NCBI GenBank assembly: GCA_031271045.1
Contig: JAISWO010000051.1
Location: 1 to 37,987, forward strand
DNA length: 37,987 nucleotides
DNA from: Tannerellaceae bacterium
Lineage (GTDB): Bacteria > Bacteroidota > Bacteroidia > Bacteroidales > Tannerellaceae
Reading direction: 5' to 3'
The notes beneath the pieces are model-generated. The model saw only the letters and a program-made list of their open reading frames with translations, was not told the DNA's origin and ran no database searches. Position numbers and translations under genes: made by a program. This document shows positions 13,926 to 37,560 of the stretch, piece after piece; within the stretch, counting starts at the first letter, position 1, and the number at the start of each line of letters is the position of its first letter.

Positions 13926-13945
13926 CGGAATATTGACTACCTTTG
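13914..13945 (+). promoter_or_regulatory. Promoter of the DUF3467 gene
   Basis: TACCTTTG at 13938-13945 is an exact -7 element. At the expected 20-nt spacing upstream is TTTC (13914-13917), one base from the TTTG consensus. It overlaps the 3' arm of the preceding terminator, so the two units are tightly packed. Confidence 0.7.
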
Positions 13946-13980
13946 TTGTTGCATTTTTAAACCTCTTATTATCATACAAT

Positions 13981-14292
13981 ATGGAAACAAAGAACCCCCA
14001 TCCCGGAAATGAAATCCAGGTAGAACTTACGGAAGAAATTGCTCAGGGAACGTACGCCAACCTGGCTATCATCGCACACTCTTCCTACGAGTTTATCATT
14101 GACTTTATCAGAGTGGTACCCGGTGTACCCAAGGCAAAGGTAAAAAGCCGCATCATACTGACCCCCGACAATGCCAAACGCCTGCTGTATGCTTTGCAAG
14201 ACAACATACGAAAGTTTGAAGAACAAAGTGGAGACATAGACAAATTCGACAACATCCTACCTCCTCTCGGCGGAATAAAAGGAGAAGCCTGA
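13981..14292 (+). CDS. DUF3467 family protein
   Basis: This is a small, uncharacterised cytoplasmic protein of 103 residues. The start is the ATG giving METKNPHPGNEIQVEL. The frame extends 48 nt further upstream, but that part runs across the promoter. The product has the DUF3467 pattern: EIAQGTYANLAIIAHSSYEF, then a DFIRVVPG segment, a KSRIILTPDNAKRLLYALQDNI block and an acidic tail. No signal peptide or membrane segment is seen. DUF3467 genes commonly lie close behind rpoC in Bacteroidetes, which suggests a link with transcription, but no function is established. Confidence 0.88.
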   Translation: METKNPHPGNEIQVELTEEIAQGTYANLAIIAHSSYEFIIDFIRVVPGVPKAKVKSRIILTPDNAKRLLYALQDNIRKFEEQSGDIDKFDNILPPLGGIKGEA

Positions 14293-14325
14293 TCGTCCTC
14301 CCCTTATTCATTTTTGTGCGTCCCT

Positions 14326-14612
14326 CACAAATGTTTGTGAGAGGCGCACAAATGTTTGTGAGGGGCGCACAAATGTTTGTGAGGGGCGCACAAATGTTTG
14401 TGAGAGGCGCACAAATGTTTGTGAGGGACGCACAAATGTTTGTGAGGGGCGCACAAATGTTTGTGAAGGACGCACAAATGTTTGTGAGGGGCACACAAAT
14501 GTTTGTGAGGGACGCACAAATGTTTGTAAGAGACGCACAAATGTTTGTGAGGGGCGCACAAATGTTTGTGAGAGACGCACAAATGTTTGTGAGAGACGCA
14601 CAAATGTTTGTA
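14326..14612 (+). repeat. Tandem array, 14 copies of a 21-bp palindrome-core unit
   Basis: The core CACAAATGTTTGTG occurs 14 times at exact 21-bp steps, starting at 14326, 14347, 14368 and so on to 14599. The last copy ends TA instead of TG. The core is a 6-bp inverted repeat (CACAAA/TTTGTG) around TG. The 7-nt linkers vary between AGGGGCG, AGAGGCG, AGGGACG, AAGGACG, AGAGACG and AGGGGCA. Read as RNA, TTTGTG-linker-CACAAA also forms a hairpin with a 7-nt loop. Because 21 is divisible by three, reading frames stay open across the array on both strands; these are not considered genes. It fills the gap between DUF3467 and the mutA promoter. Confidence 0.97.
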
Positions 14613-14698
14613 AGAAAATTTCTGACATTTTATCTCTGTAAAGATGAATCCTTCTGTCGAACTCACGCTAAAAACAAGGGTTATTTCGTCGTTTTTCC

Positions 14699-14729
14699 AT
14701 TGCGGATATTTTTATTTATTTTACCTTTG
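14699..14729 (+). promoter_or_regulatory. mutAB promoter
   Basis: TACCTTTG at 14722-14729 is an exact -7 element. An ATTG at 14699-14702 with a 19-nt spacer is a plausible -33 element. The ATG of mutA is 50 nt downstream. The 21-bp array ends 86 nt upstream of the -33 element. Confidence 0.75.
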
Positions 14730-14778
14730 CACCCTGTTATTGAACGATATAATATCAGTCTTATAAACAACAAACAAT

Positions 14779-16644
14779 ATGGCAGATTTAAAAGAAAAAC
14801 TTTTCTCTGAATTTCCTCCAATCTCTAAAGAAGAATGGATGGCAAAAATTACGGCAGATCTGAAAGGAGCGCCGTTTGAGAAAAAACTTGTGTGGAAAAC
14901 AAGTGAAGGGTTTGACGTAAGTCCTTTCTATCGCACGGAAGACATCGAAGGAATGAAAAGCATCTCTTCCTTGCCCGGCGAATTTCCTTTTGTTCGCGGA
15001 ACAAAAAAAGATAACGATTGGAAAGTACGCCAAAACATCGACATTGCCGACTTCAAGACAGCAAACACTAAAGCGCTTGACCTGCTGCAAAAAGGTATTA
15101 CTTCCCTCGGTTTTCATTTCAAAGGGGATGATGTAACCCCGGAAAACATCGCAACTTTATTACAGGGTATCTACCCCGAATGTGTGGAATTAAACTTCAA
15201 AACCTGCAACAACAAAGCAGAAACGCTCATCCACATCCTGAGCAACTACCTGAAAGGAACAGGAGCCGACTTAAACAAATGTTTCGGATCCGTAGACTAC
15301 AATCCATTTAAAAAACCCTTAGTAAAAGGACTGACGGCCGACAACTGGGTAGAGCAAACCGCCGCCATACTCCGCGCCTCCGAAGCCCTTCCCGCTTACA
15401 AAGTCATCGCCGTAGACGCCTGCCTGCTGAGCGACGCCGGCGCATACATCTCGCAAGAACTGGGATACGCACTCGCCTGGGGCAATGAGATCATTGCCAA
15501 ACTAAGCGACGCCGGATTCACAGCCGGAAGCATTGCAAAAAAAATCAAATTCAACTTCGGCATCGGAGCAAACTATTTCATGGAAATAGCCAAATTCCGC
15601 GCCGCACGCTGGCTGTGGGCCGAAATCGTAGCAGCTTACCAACCGGAAGAAACCTGCCGTTGCGCCTCCAAAATGGCCCTCCATGCACAAACATCGTGGT
15701 GGAACCAAACCATATACGACGCCCATGTAAACCTGCTACGCACACAAACCGAAGCCATGTCGGCCGCCATTGCCGGGGTAGACTCCATCGCCGTTTCCCC
15801 ATTCGACGAAACGTACCAGACCCCCGACGAGTTCTCCGAACGCATCGCTCGCAACCAACAACTCCTGCTCAAAGAAGAATGTCACTTCGATAAGGTGACC
15901 GATCCATCGGCCGGTTCCTATTACATAGAAGTATTAACACACTCACTGGCCGGCGTAGCCTGGAAACTCTTCCTCGAAGCGGAAGACAAAGGCGGATTCT
16001 ACGCCCTGATCACATCGGGCGAAGTACAAAACGCCGTCAATGCCTCATCCGCAATCCGGAAGAAAGCCATTGCCACCCGCCGGGAAATACTGTTAGGCAC
16101 CAACCAATACCCAAACTTCACCGAAGTAGCAGCAGTCAAAATAAAGAACGACAACAACTCCTGCTGTAACTGCGGAGCAGAAAAGGCTACCCTGCCGACG
16201 CTCGACTTCTCGCGCGGAGCTTCCCAATTTGAAGCCCTACGCCTGTCTACCGAAAAGAGCGGCAAAGCCCCGAAAGCATTCATGCTCACCATTGGCAACC
16301 TCGCCATGCGCCTGGCGCGTTCACAATTCTCAAGCAATTTCTTCGCCTGCGCCGGATACAAAATAATCGACAACTTAGGATTCGATACCGTAGAAGCCGG
16401 CGTAGAAGCAGCCGTCAACGCCGGAGCCGAAGTCGTAGTCCTCTGTTCCAGCGACGACGAATATGCACTCCTGGCCATTCCCGCCTACAAAGCATTAGCC
16501 GGCAGGGCCGAATTTGTTGTGGCCGGAGCCCCGGCTTGCACCGACGAACTGAAAGCCGAGGGAATTACCAACTTCGTAAACGTAAAGAGCAACGTCCTGG
16601 AAACACTGAAAGCGTTTAATGCAAAATTAGGAATTGAATTATGA
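14779..16644 (+). CDS. mutA: Methylmalonyl-CoA mutase small (beta) subunit
   Basis: This is the non-catalytic partner of the coenzyme B12-dependent mutase that interconverts succinyl-CoA and (R)-methylmalonyl-CoA. The 621-residue length fits the family. The N-terminal half has the mutase barrel pattern ([57 protein letters not shown]). The C-terminal flavodoxin-like domain lacks the cobalt-ligating DxHxxG motif, as expected of small subunits. A cysteine-bearing NNSCCNCG insert near residues 457-464 links the two domains. The stop overlaps the mutB start by 4 nt (ATGA), so translation is coupled. Confidence 0.97.
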
Positions 16645-18785
16645 GACCGGATTTTAAAAACATAGATATAGAAAATGCCGGATTCGCAGCAACCGATGCA
16701 GCGGAATGGGCAAAGGCCAACAATATAACGGCCGATTGGAAAACACCTGAACACATCCAGGTGAAATCAGTATATACCAAAGAGGACCTGGAAGGAATGG
16801 AACACCTCAATTATGCCTCCGGACTTCCCCCTTATCTGCGCGGACCGTACAGCGGAATGTACGCCATGCGCCCCTGGACAATCCGCCAATACGCCGGATT
16901 CTCCACCGCCGAAGAATCGAACGCATTCTACCGCCGCAACTTAGCCTCCGGGCAAAAAGGACTGTCGGTGGCTTTCGACCTGGCCACACATCGCGGATAC
17001 GATGCCGACCACGATCGTGTAGTAGGCGACGTAGGAAAAGCCGGCGTTTCCATCTGCTCGCTGGAAAATATGAAAGTCCTATTCGATGGTATTCCATTGA
17101 ATAAGATGTCTGTATCCATGACCATGAACGGAGCCGTACTCCCCGTACTGGCCTTCTACATCAATGCAGGACTGGAACAAGGCGCCCAATTGGAAGAAAT
17201 GGCAGGAACCATACAGAACGACATCCTGAAAGAATTTATGGTGCGCAACACCTATATCTATCCACCGGAATTTTCGATGAAGATCATTGCCGACATATTC
17301 GAATACACCTCGCAGAAGATGCCGAAGTTCAACTCCATCTCTATCTCAGGCTACCACATGCAGGAAGCCGGAGCGACGGCCGACATCGAAATGGCCTACA
17401 CCCTGTGCGACGGGATGGAATATCTCCGCGCCGGGATCAACGCCGGGATTGATGTGGATGCCTTTGCCCCCCGCCTTTCCTTCTTCTGGGCCATCGGGAT
17501 GAATCACTTCATGGAAATAGCCAAAATGCGCGCCGCACGTATGCTGTGGGCCAAGATCGTGAAAAGCTTCGGAGCCAAAAACCCCAAATCGCTGGCCCTT
17601 CGCACACACTGTCAGACCTCCGGCTGGTCGCTCACCGAGCAAGATCCCTTCAACAACGTAGGACGCACCTGTATCGAAGCCATGGCCGCCGCCTTAGGAC
17701 ACACTCAGTCGCTCCACACCAACGCCCTCGACGAAGCCATCGCCCTGCCAACCGACTTCTCTGCACGTATCGCCCGTAATACACAGATATACATACAGGA
17801 AGAAACGCAAGTATGCAAAGAAATCGACCCTTGGGCCGGCTCCTATTACGTCGAATCGCTCACCCACGAACTGGTGCACAAAGGCTGGGAACTGATTCAG
17901 GAAATTGAAAGCATGGGAGGCATGGCCAAAGCCATCGAAACCGGTTTGCCCAAGATGCGCATCGAAGAAGCCGCCGCACGCACTCAGGCGCGTATCGACT
18001 CAGGCTCCCAGACCATCGTCGGCGTAAACAAATACCGTCTGGACAAAGAAGCCCCCATTGACATTCTCGAAATAGACAATACCGCCGTCCGCATAGAACA
18101 GATCGACCGATTGAACGAACTTCGCGGCAAGCGGGATGATGCTGCTGTAAAGCAGGTACTGGCCGAGATCACCGAGTGCGCCCGCACCAAGAAAGGCAAT
18201 CTGCTGGAGCTGGCCGTAAAAGCCGCCGGACTCCGCGCCAGCTTAGGCGAAATATCCGATGCCTGCGAAGCCATTGCAGGACGTTATAAAGCAATCATCA
18301 GAACCATATCAGGCGTGTATTCATCAGAAACAGGAAAAGACGCAGACTTCATCCAAGCCACCCGACTGGCCGAACAGTTTGCCCAAAAAGAAGGCCGCCA
18401 GCCCCGTATCATGATCGCCAAAATGGGTCAGGACGGGCACGACCGCGGCGCCAAAGTAGTAGCAACAGGTTATGCCGACTGCGGTTTCGACGTCGACATG
18501 GGGCCTTTGTTCCAAACACCGGCCGAAGCAGCTCGCCAAGCCGTAGAAAACGACGTACACGTGATGGGCGTTTCCTCTTTGGCTGCCGGACACAAGACCC
18601 TGGTTCCGCAGGTCATTGAAGAGTTGAAAAAGCTGGGGCGCCCCGACATCATTGTCATCGCCGGAGGCGTTATCCCCGCCCAAGACTATGATTTCCTCTA
18701 TAAAGCAGGCGTAGCCGCCATCTTTGGACCGGGCACCTCCGTTGCCAAAGCCGCTGTACAGATACTGGAAATCCTGTTAGGCTAA
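16641..18785 (+). CDS. mutB: Methylmalonyl-CoA mutase large (alpha) subunit
   Basis: This is the catalytic subunit. It rearranges succinyl-CoA and methylmalonyl-CoA with adenosylcobalamin, the key step of propionate formation from succinate in Bacteroidales. The 714-residue product has a TIM-barrel with substrate-site segments [36 protein letters not shown] and [21 protein letters not shown]. The C-terminal B12 domain carries GQDGHDRG with D598, H600 (the cobalt ligand) and G603. The ATG lies inside the mutA stop. A strong terminator follows the gene by 28 nt. No epimerase or decarboxylase subunit genes are adjacent. Confidence 0.98.
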
Positions 18786-29836: not shown

Positions 29837-30688
29837 ATGAAAGATCGCATCTTCAGGGCGACACTCTTCCTCGCGGCCGGCCTCATCGTCCTGCTGACGG
29901 CCGGCATTGTCTACGGCCTGGTCAGCCAAAGCATGGATGCACTGACGCACTTCGGGCCGTTGCACTTCATCACTTCGCCGGCCTGGGATTCGCGCAGCGA
30001 CGACTACGGCGCCCTGTCTTTTATTGCGGGAACGCTCCTTACGGCAGTCCTGGCGCTGGCTTTCTGTATTCCTTTTTCCTTCTCGGCGTCGTTGTTCAAC
30101 GGCGAGTATTTCCGGGGCCGGAAGATAGCGACGGTGGTAGGCTCGATTGTCGATTTGCTGGCCGGCGTGCCGAGCATCGTCTTTGGTCTGTGGGGATTCT
30201 ATACCTTGCGGCCATTGCTGGCCGGAGCGGGAGGACAGGGCTTCGGCATATTGTTGGCCTCCATCGTGCTGGCGATTATGATCATCCCATACGCCTCGTC
30301 GCTGAGCGCCGAGTTTATCGCCATGACGCCCAGCGAGCTGAAAGAAGGGGCTTATAGCCTGGGGGCCACCCGGATGGAGGTCGTTCGCTACGTCAGTCTG
30401 CCGGTAGCCGGGTCGGGGATCCTGGCTTCCTATATGCTGGCTTTCGGCCGGGCGCTGGGCGAGACGATGGCCGTCACCATGCTGATCGGCAATACCAACA
30501 ACCTCCCCCACGGCCTGACGGATACCGGCAATACGATGGCCAGCATCATCGCCAACCAGTTCGGCGAAGCCGGAGGACTGAAGCTCAGTTCCCTGATGGC
30601 CATCGGCCTGCTGTTGTTCCTGCTTACGGCTACCATCAATTTCCTTTCCAAATACATATTAAAATGCGTCACACTCTCGAAGTCCTGA
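29837..30688 (+). CDS. pstC: Phosphate ABC transporter permease PstC
   Basis: PstC is one of the two membrane subunits of the phosphate importer. The 283-residue product has about six hydrophobic segments, the first at residues 8-28. The ABC-permease EAA-type loop reads ELKEGAYSLGATRMEVVRYVSLP. The VDLLAGVPSIVFGLWGFY segment and GRALGETMAVTMLIG are characteristic of PstC. Its last 25 nt overlap the pstA reading frame. Confidence 0.96.
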   Translation: MKDRIFRATLFLAAGLIVLLTAGIVYGLVSQSMDALTHFGPLHFITSPAWDSRSDDYGALSFIAGTLLTAVLALAFCIPFSFSASLFNGEYFRGRKIATVVGSIVDLLAGVPSIVFGLWGFYTLRPLLAGAGGQGFGILLASIVLAIMIIPYASSLSAEFIAMTPSELKEGAYSLGATRMEVVRYVSLPVAGSGILASYMLAFGRALGETMAVTMLIGNTNNLPHGLTDTGNTMASIIANQFGEAGGLKLSSLMAIGLLLFLLTATINFLSKYILKCVTLSKS

Positions 30689-31731
30689 ATCAGGATACCT
30701 CCCAGCCGTGCGACAGGTCGCAACGTTACAACCCGACAGATCGTAAGGTTACGACTCAACAGATCGTAATGCTACGACCCGGCAGGTCGCAACGCTACGA
30801 CCCGACAGGTCGTAATGCTACGACTCAACAGGTCGTAACGTTACGACCCGGCAAGCCGCAACGCTACGACTCGTCTCGCAACAGCCGTCGCATCAAAGAC
30901 CGTCTGTTCTTCTACCTCGTCTGCTGCTGTACGTTCCTGACGCTCATACCCTTGTTTCTGATCCTGTGGGAGCTGATACAAAAGGGATACCGTCAGTTCA
31001 ACCTGGGCCTCTTCACCCAGGTGGCGCCCACGTCGATGGAAGCTATGCTGGCGCGCATCAGCGGCGACGCCCTTCCCGGAGGCATACTCAACGGCATCAC
31101 CGGGACGCTGCTGATCCTCTTCGTCGCCATCCTCGCAGCCATCCCGCTGGGTATATGGGTCGGTATCTATTTAGCCGAGAAAGGAGAACGCCCTCTGGCC
31201 CGCCTGGTGCGCAACCTGGCCGACCTGCTCCAGGGAATCCCCTCGATCGTGACCGGCATCATCGTCTACATCTGGGTCGTCAGGCCGATGGGAGGCTATT
31301 CGGCCCTGGCCGGCAGCGTAGCCCTGGCCGTAATGATGCTCCCGATGGTGATCCGCTCGACGGAAGAAAGCCTGAAGATGCTGCCCGCTTCGCTGAAAGA
31401 AGCCGGCCTGTCGCTGGGCGGCTCTTATGCATCGGTGATGCTGCGCGTCTTGCTGCCCTCTGCCTTCAGCGGCTTGTTTACGGGCTCGCTCATCGCCATC
31501 TCGCGCGTGATGGGCGAAACGGCCCCCCTGCTGGTCACCGCCCTGGGAGCGGCCGCCATCAACTGGGACCTGAGCCGTCCGACCAGCTCCGTCTCCCTGC
31601 TCATCTGGGAGTTCTACAACGATCCGAACCTGGCCCCCCTGGTATGGTCGTCCTCCCTCCTGCTGCTACTCATTATATTATGCATCAATCTCTCAGCCAA
31701 AAGCATCGCCACGAAATGGAAGACACAGTAA
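30664..31731 (+). CDS. pstA: Phosphate ABC transporter permease PstA with a repeat-encoded N-terminal extension
   Basis: PstA is the second membrane subunit of the importer. The typical PstA part begins around residue 76 (RIKDRLFFYL) and has about six transmembrane segments, LLQGIPSIVTGIIVYIWV, and the EAA loop SLKEAGLSLGGSYASVMLRVLLP. The first ~75 residues are extra. They contain a 23-residue repeat (RSQRYDPT... ending TLRPG or MLRPG at 18-40 and 41-63, then a partial copy) encoded by a 23-bp tandem repeat whose three-unit blocks keep the frame. The start at 30664 overlaps pstC. Internal ATG codons in the array (for example 30769) could also be used. The extension is cytoplasmic if translated. 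Function as a permease is not in doubt; the true start is. Confidence 0.9.
   Translation: MRHTLEVLNQDTSQPCDRSQRYNPTDRKVTTQQIVMLRPGRSQRYDPTGRNATTQQVVTLRPGKPQRYDSSRNSRRIKDRLFFYLVCCCTFLTLIPLFLILWELIQKGYRQFNLGLFTQVAPTSMEAMLARISGDALPGGILNGITGTLLILFVAILAAIPLGIWVGIYLAEKGERPLARLVRNLADLLQGIPSIVTGIIVYIWVVRPMGGYSALAGSVALAVMMLPMVIRSTEESLKMLPASLKEAGLSLGGSYASVMLRVLLPSAFSGLFTGSLIAISRVMGETAPLLVTALGAAAINWDLSRPTSSVSLLIWEFYNDPNLAPLVWSSSLLLLLIILCINLSAKSIATKWKTQ
30716..30871 (+). repeat. 23-bp palindromic tandem repeat inside the 5' end of pstA
   Basis: Seven units of 23 bp start at 30716, 30739, 30762, 30785, 30808, 30831 and 30854; the last is degenerate. The core is GGTCGTAAcgTTACGACC-like; in unit six (30831-30848) it is a perfect 18-bp palindrome. 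Units 1-3 and 4-6 share the linker order CCGACA, CTCAACA, CCGGCA, so the true duplicated block is 69 bp and keeps the frame. At mRNA level it can form a chain of hairpins at the pstC-pstA junction. Confidence 0.95.
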
Positions 31732-37207: not shown

Positions 37208-37560
37208 CCCACTGATTTCTACGGTGGGATAAATTGGGTTCAGATTAGCCCCACTGATTTCTACAGTGGGATGATTCGGGCTCGGAGTGGCCCCATTGAT
37301 TTCTATAGTGGGACTGATTGGGCTCGGAGTGACCCATTCATTTTTACGGTAGGACTGATTGGGGTCGGAGTGGCCCCAATGATTTCTACGGTGGGACTGA
37401 TTGGGCTCGGAGTGATCCCATTCATTTTTACGGTGGAACTGATTGGGGTCGGAGTGGCCCCATTCATTTTTACGGTGGGACTGATTAGGGTCGGAGTGAT
37501 CCCATTCATTTCTACAGTGGGACTGATTGGGTTTGAGTTCGTGTCACCGATTTTTACAGT
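37208..37560 (+). repeat. 42-bp tandem array with a hairpin core, about nine units
   Basis: Units start at 37208, 37250, 37292, 37333, 37375, 37417, 37459 and 37501, with a degenerate ninth near 37543. One interval is 41 bp, the rest 42. The core CCCACTG-ATTTCTA-CAGTGGG (exact at 37250) is a 7-bp inverted repeat with a 7-nt loop. The variant at 37292 (CCCATTG/TAGTGGG) keeps pairing through wobbles. The rest of the unit is a GATTGGG(C/G)TCGGAGTG-type linker. Frames stay open because 42 is divisible by three; the 41-bp unit shifts them. I do not treat the predicted FTVGLIGVGV-like peptide as a gene. Confidence 0.93.

Follow-up and report, generated by a model that had tools for sequence, protein, structure and literature searches.

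A dispersed family of palindromic 21-bp tandem repeats, present upstream of mutAB and elsewhere in a Tannerellaceae genome, and the size class of arrays to which it belongs

The stretch of DNA analyzed here (henceforth the window) is a contig of 37,987 nucleotides from a Tannerellaceae bacterium whose genome assembly (G000) comprises 2.79 Mb and is 88.5% complete. A regular array of palindromic units lies between the gene for a DUF3467 protein and a pair of genes for methylmalonyl-CoA mutase (mutAB); two further arrays of unrelated sequence are found toward the other end of the window. The features to which we refer are as follows:

13933..14292, + strand: ORF of a DUF3467 protein (Pfam); start as predicted, stop 33 bp before the array
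14305..14325, no strand: candidate degenerate edge unit TATTCATTTTTGTGCGTCCCT, possible on inspection by eye
14326..14612, + strand: array of 14 units of 21 bp, each a core CACAAATGTTTGTG plus a 7-bp linker (consensus AGGGGCG, with G>A variants)
14613..14699, no strand: spacer from the array to the mutAB promoter, mostly not in common with the near relative L029
14700..14729, + strand: putative Bacteroidetes-type mutAB promoter, TTG-N19-TACCTTTG (by eye)
14730..14778, + strand: mutAB leader CACCCTGTTATTGAACGATATAATA..., near-identical in the window, L029 and L030
14779..16644, + strand: mutA-type gene, methylmalonyl-CoA mutase, 621 aa (Pfam)
16641..18785, + strand: mutB-type gene, methylmalonyl-CoA mutase with B12-binding domain, 714 aa (Pfam)
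30711..30870, no strand: second array of the same size class, 7 units of 23 bp, dyad GGTCGTAACGYTACGACC, unrelated sequence
37208..37531, no strand: third array, 7.7 units of 42 bp, unrelated sequence

Tandem Repeats Finder delimits the array at 14326-14611, with a period of 21, 13.6 copies, 92% matches and 0% indels. The copies run head to tail and the unit falls within the 10–60 bp range of tandem repeats. On the + strand of the window the core CACAAATGTTTGTG occurs 14 times in exact 21-bp steps, confirming the initial annotation, which had reported 14 phased repeats free of length drift. Twelve of the 14 cores are exact; the copies at 14515 and 14599 end in A. When up to two mismatches are allowed, both strands of the window together return 26 matches, where shuffled sequence would be expected to give 0.24. 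Open frames extend across the array, as 21 is a multiple of three. A CRISPR array was ruled out: the 7-bp linkers are near-identical, where unlike spacers would be required.

The core had been described as a palindrome, nearly invariant, with linkers that change only at purine positions. The arms CACAAA and TTTGTG are indeed complementary, but the palindrome is imperfect, its TG center being non-palindromic. All 15 substitutions in the array are G>A: two fall among 196 core positions and 13 among 91 linker positions (Fisher p ~1e-5). The core, however, has few Gs, and the argument from its invariance is therefore weaker than it appears: when only G sites are considered, 2 of 42 are changed in the core and 13 of 65 in the linker (p = 0.043), and the contrast between core and linker is thus largely one of base composition.

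From the end of the array it is 87 bp to a TTG-N19-TACCTTTG element, which we take to be a promoter of the Bacteroidetes type; the position of the array just upstream of the mutAB promoter was correctly called. Among six sequences compared, TACCTTTG is aligned in five, while L036 has identical letters, unaligned, further upstream. The leader (CCCTGTTATTGAACGATATAATA...CAGTCTTATAAA) is recognizable also in L031 and L039 and is possibly a conserved 5′ UTR element; it has no match in Rfam, and a scan of the window at Rfam gathering scores returned three tRNAs and nothing further. Among named relatives, those closest in MutA are metagenome bins of the Tannerellaceae, the sample codes of which resemble those of termite-gut surveys.

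It had been proposed that the array is a binding platform belonging to mutAB. Its location 87 bp upstream of a conserved promoter is what such a regulatory array would lead one to expect; yet in L029 and L030 (MutA 85% and 82% identical, respectively) promoter and leader are nearly identical to those of the window, and no array separates the DUF3467 gene (identified by eye) from mutA. Moreover, the same core adjoins unrelated genes elsewhere in the genome (below). We consider a mutAB-specific regulatory array very improbable indeed, and a mutAB-specific operator was rejected on the strength of these empty sites and of the dispersal of the core. As far as these comparisons can be read, the array is without a dedicated role at mutAB, and regulation of mutAB should not be read into it. 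The initial annotation had the observation right and the local interpretation mostly wrong.

Two features of the relatives are worth recording. In L029 an array of 22-bp palindromic units, unrelated in sequence, lies beyond the DUF3467 gene on its opposite side. In L030 (L030:3694-3888) the gap between the DUF3467 gene and mutA holds two inverted copies of ~31 bp, 164 bp apart, which look like a small MITE; the pair occupies the same gap that holds the array in the window.

A search of the genome and its relatives for the core, which the initial annotation had suggested, gave a positive answer for the one and a negative answer for the other. With at most one mismatch the core occurs at 40 places in G000: all are within arrays and none is isolated. 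Five clear array loci have the core in a 21-bp register (contigs C2, C20, C25, C38 and C68), and a degenerate sixth array of the core family is found on C70. The double unit, with at most two mismatches, was found in none of 122 further family genomes, of which 61 are at least 90% complete and many are incomplete, and in none of 40 additional genomes drawn from the phylum. Viral contigs contain no exact match to the double unit, and a phage origin of the array was rejected on this ground.

The four sister loci (C2, C25, C38 and C68) share no common placement relative to genes. On C68 the array sits between two convergent genes (by eye); on C25 it lies ~40 bp upstream of a start codon, close to the contig end; on C2 it is found beyond the 3′ end of a glycosidase-like gene (by eye); and on C38 it is inside a gene. 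The array of the window is one locus of a dispersed family, rather than a switch dedicated to mutAB. Units of the C25 array (L110:9938-10084) and of the window have the same linker orientation and opposite center dinucleotides (CA versus TG), as though an inversion of the palindrome's loop separated them.

Dispersed copies of one family, together with empty sites in relatives, are also what a non-autonomous transposable element (MITE) carrying a minisatellite would leave behind. An element of this kind is to be found in Porphyromonas gingivalis, a species that we take to belong to the same order as the window organism. As described by Klein et al. 2015 (PMC4596501), BrickBuilt is a 23-nt minisatellite within a MITE, with a copy number that varies among strains; it is present at 19 loci in ATCC 33277, is reported to be always intergenic, and is bounded by a leader and a tail that bear IS5-like terminal repeats. 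The same source lists 41-, 23- and 22-nt repeats in P. gingivalis, the 41-nt repeat residing in MITE464/PgRS. The likeness to the family described here extends to a tandem unit without spacers, dispersed loci, imperfect copies and predicted stem-loops. The differences are that the published consensus is 23 nt in length, whereas the present unit is 21 bp and differs in sequence by eye, and that one of the present arrays lies in frame in murD.

Comparison of the DNA flanking the five arrays (up to 300 bp per side; for one side of C25, 156 bp) gave no shared match exceeding 15 bp in length or scoring better than E 0.079, so that shared ends are largely refuted, and no leader or tail common to the five loci, as in BrickBuilt, was found. 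The BrickBuilt terminal inverted repeat GAGACCTTTGCA does not occur in the window at up to two mismatches (2.85 expected). Within 500 bp of the five arrays there are two 10-of-12 matches to it, one beside C38 and one within a unit of C68, with two mismatches each and no pair. A MITE of the BrickBuilt sort is accordingly an improbable carrier. Given the other unit, the missing BrickBuilt end, the unshared flanks and the lack of a Y1 transposase, we have not filed the array as BrickBuilt. The last point concerns REP and BIME palindromes, which are dispersed intergenic palindromes associated with RAYT (Y1) transposases. The present arrays resemble them in being dispersed palindromes and differ in forming long, regular head-to-tail arrays. 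No match to Y1_Tnp (TnpA_REP) was obtained in G000, at its 88.5% completeness, although two of eight other genus genomes searched have one; a RAYT/REP system was rejected on this basis.

Of particular interest is the array on C38 (L111:9394-10086), where ~30 palindromic 21-bp units run in frame from the start codon of murD to the body of MurD (assigned by Pfam). The start codon overlaps the stop codon of mraY. Of 17 other genomes of the genus, 14 were readable at this locus (of the remaining three, two were missed by the motif search and one was cut by a contig end): none has an array, and murD starts within ~10 bases of the mraY stop. On the evidence of the reading frame, either MurD would carry an extension of ~229 residues built of heptapeptides, or translation would restart after the array.

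The core takes three forms in successive blocks along this array (GGAAA..TTTC, CCAAAG..CTTTT and CACAAA..TTTGTG), with the 21-bp register unchanged. Pair 5-14 of the dyad illustrates the pattern: among 30 units it is G-C in 10, C-G in 10 and A-T in 8. Counted over nine pairs, Watson-Crick combinations fill 169 of 270 cells; shuffling one side of the dyad gives 147.3 (sd 5.1; z 4.2), with a maximum of 164 in 2000 shuffles. Pairing is not uniform: pair 3-16 is poorly paired (6/30), and the center is unpaired (9/30). When the distinct units of the five arrays are pooled (56 in total), there are 339 Watson-Crick cells of 504 against 314.3 (sd 6.2; z 4.0), with at least one of the 2000 shuffles higher (340). 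As the covariation on C38 is distributed over three blocks, it may rest on few independent events. To this extent the initial annotation is supported: from the covariation of the arms on C38 and the enrichment of dyads in arrays of this size class (below), the dyad looks either constrained or actively maintained while its letters change.

The arrays also bear traces of how they grew. Units of C25 match best at lag 2 (0.943, versus 0.817 at lag 1), and those of C68 at lag 3 (0.898, versus 0.868 at lag 1), the mark of two- and three-unit duplications; C25 carries a young 42-bp higher-order repeat. Units of C2 and C38 match best at lag 1, and those of the window array give no clear lag, so that higher-order repeats are present in two of the five arrays and absent by lag from three. 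By eye, the units at the edges of arrays look decayed.

Together these observations are probably best accounted for by a dispersed palindromic minisatellite, found in one genome, built on an imperfect palindrome of 14–18 bp with a fixed period of 21 bp and growing by slippage or unequal exchange. A neutral minisatellite had been listed as an alternative in the initial annotation; it is the best fit among the readings then offered, but the array is not fully unconstrained. According to the scheme that we favor, a seed would enter a gap between genes or, in one case, the beginning of murD; the array would then be enlarged and homogenized, one to three units at a time, by slippage during replication or by unequal exchange; and its edges would decay, as their appearance suggests. 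Single-stranded units may fold into hairpins and thereby promote slippage. One arm of such a hairpin could then template the repair of the other, preserving the dyad while the letters change; template switching at quasi-palindromes is a known route of mutagenesis. Hairpin folding is most likely the reason that the dyad has been retained, with binding of a dimeric protein the main alternative, and we infer that the array itself is neutral.

Hairpins could alternatively matter in RNA, the array acting as a transcribed chain of stem-loops that affects mRNA stability or termination. It begins 33 bp after the stop codon of the DUF3467 gene, and the folding of a 145-nt stretch of it greatly surpasses that of shuffles for either strand (z -7.7 and -5.3); good folding of tandem palindromes is, however, expected by construction. 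Of five single units folded as RNA, four (window +, window - and two from C38) do no better than shuffles, the exception being the C25 unit, which folds alone at -7.8 kcal/mol (z -3.4). No terminator-like site was found in 14250-14800, and some arrays of the wider class lie in divergent gaps. Finally, the mismatches of the 23-bp array in the window, read on the gene strand (13 A-C, 2 G-T), run in the wrong direction for G-U tolerance. Across 23 arrays the same comparison of G-T with A-C mismatches gave totals that favor one type per array (79 versus 19), the units within an array being related by descent. An RNA element is, on balance, a doubtful proposition of low probability.

The minisatellite reading is less complete where the period is concerned. 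Bacterial minisatellites are usually taken to be products of slippage with broad size ranges. We surveyed sampled stretches of DNA with Tandem Repeats Finder (score of at least 60, at least 2.5 copies, one period per array). Within the genus there are 69 such arrays: 42 have units of 20–24 bp, 19 have units of 40–45 bp and none has units of 25–39 bp; most units in the class are 21–23 or 41–43 bp. The cut on copy number removed 25 of 94 genus arrays, among them 15 at 20–24 or 40–45 bp and 3 at 27–29 bp, so that with shorter arrays counted 3 of 94 fall at 25–39 bp. The gap is not a fault of detection, as a simulation recovered 90 of 90 arrays of 25–39 bp.

The pattern holds in the separate samples of the genus. 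The 427 kb from the window's genome, which include four loci fetched because they hold the core, contain 31 arrays (16 at 20–24 bp, 12 at 40–45, none at 25–39); the 327 kb of it not chosen for arrays contain 9 at 20–24, 11 at 40–45, none at 25–39 and 3 others. Other species of the genus (585 kb) have 38 arrays, with 26 at 20–24 bp, 7 at 40–45 and none at 25–39. Other genera of the family (298 kb) have 40, of which 19 are at 20–24 bp, 17 below 15 bp and 1 at 25–39. Outside the family arrays are rarer: 6 in 273 kb from other families of the order (3 at 20–24 bp), 6 in 145 kb from other orders of the class (1 at 20–24, 2 at 25–39) and 1 in 166 kb from other classes. A mixed set of 80 mutA loci, Tannerellaceae included (658 kb), contains 16 arrays, with 7 at 20–24 bp, 1 at 25–39 and 1 at 40–45. 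Two 50-kb stretches of E. coli K-12 (100 kb) have none, a sample too small to say more.

Grouping by similarity gave 80 families with units of 15–60 bp: 52 at 20–24 bp, 19 at 40–45, 3 at 25–39 and 6 at 15–18. The longer units are not fused or doubled 21-mers, an explanation rejected because similarity at a half-unit shift reaches p < 0.05 in only 1 of 19. Dyads follow the same division. In five of seven sample groups, with families counted per group, the best consensus dyad is significant relative to base shuffles (mid-p < 0.05) for 22 of 52 families at 20–24 bp and 7 of 19 at 40–45 bp, and for none of 12 families of 12–19 or 25–39 bp. As 30 of the 52 families at 20–24 bp have no significant dyad, the palindrome is common in the class and not universal.

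Both patterns bear on the possibility of a genome-wide binding platform, in which a dimeric or nucleoid protein would occupy each dyad and a spacing of about two or four helical turns would be selected. Dyads are enriched in the class and covary in one array; periods cluster near 21–23 and 41–43 bp; and among 46 units from the five loci (10 of the 30 units of C38 used) the last three positions of the unit vary most. The platform explains the gap in periods better than does a minisatellite growing by hairpins and slippage. However, 34 of the 52 families at 20–24 bp have units of 22 or 23 bp, which drift around the helix in a way that helical spacing leaves unexplained: the phasing on one face of the DNA that had been claimed for the window array suits its own 21-bp unit and not many others of the class. 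Because the sequence of the unit differs between families, a single sequence-specific protein could not serve them all. Nor was a preferred gene context seen: with a crude home-made gene finder, 61 arrays of the class fall into 22 co-directional, 5 convergent and 10 divergent gaps, 5 genes and 19 contig edges, against background gaps of 181 co-directional, 43 convergent and 57 divergent, roughly as gap types occur and with no visible preference for promoter regions. On this evidence we regard the platform as unlikely. Iterons of plasmid origins, which are direct repeats near two helical turns, resemble the arrays in spacing; the coexistence here of many unrelated families per genome is a difference, for which reason the iteron reading was set aside.

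A plain slippage minisatellite does not predict two sizes of unit, and the period rule is left unexplained by it. It is conceivable, if still rather unlikely, that dozens of unrelated arrays in the genus owe their periods, of about two and about four helical turns, to one mechanism or protein, which would make the arrays a feature of the chromosome that depends on geometry and is independent of sequence. They could then be either a phased protein platform with a role in chromosome organization or the traces left by an enzyme whose duplications of DNA are of set length. Were it true, the length of arrays would be set by geometry and not by sequence, offering a testable handle on the origin of bacterial tandem repeats.

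The sizes given for P. gingivalis in PMC4596501 (22/23 and 41 nt) match both size classes found here; the 41-nt period of PgRS/MITE464, compared by description, fits the second (41–43 bp). MITE parts flanking the repeat, as in that element, were not seen in the present case. If the period is indeed fixed, the BrickBuilt and PgRS repeats would be described members of the class and would join a wider phenomenon of the Bacteroidales. Apart from the work on P. gingivalis, no account of a Bacteroidales-wide rule was found among the matches listed from open-licence PMC text or in passages of PMC5771137; passages of PMC9426551 treat intergenic tandem repeats of Planctomycetota and give no periods. 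In itself the window array is unremarkable within its class; what is unusual, and merits pursuit, is the class as a whole, for its two lengths of unit and its dyads.

Some further arrays may be recorded. The 7 x 23-bp array of the window is found at the 5′ end of an ORF for an ABC permease (30664-31731) in which the Pfam match begins at residue 163; the true start of the gene may lie after the array. The 42-bp array, near the end of the window and inside an ORF without a Pfam match, has no dyad of 6 of 7 pairs. Period-10 arrays on TCTTATGAGT or its complement occur in a different genus of the family (G025), several of them in ~220 kb (L131:15351, L143:16713 and L145:1305). Two 22-bp arrays, L159:12243 in the window's genome and L114:15027 in G002, have the stem CGGCTG/CAGCCG in common and differ in their centers; to judge by these letters they may be one family in which the arms were kept and the loop changed.
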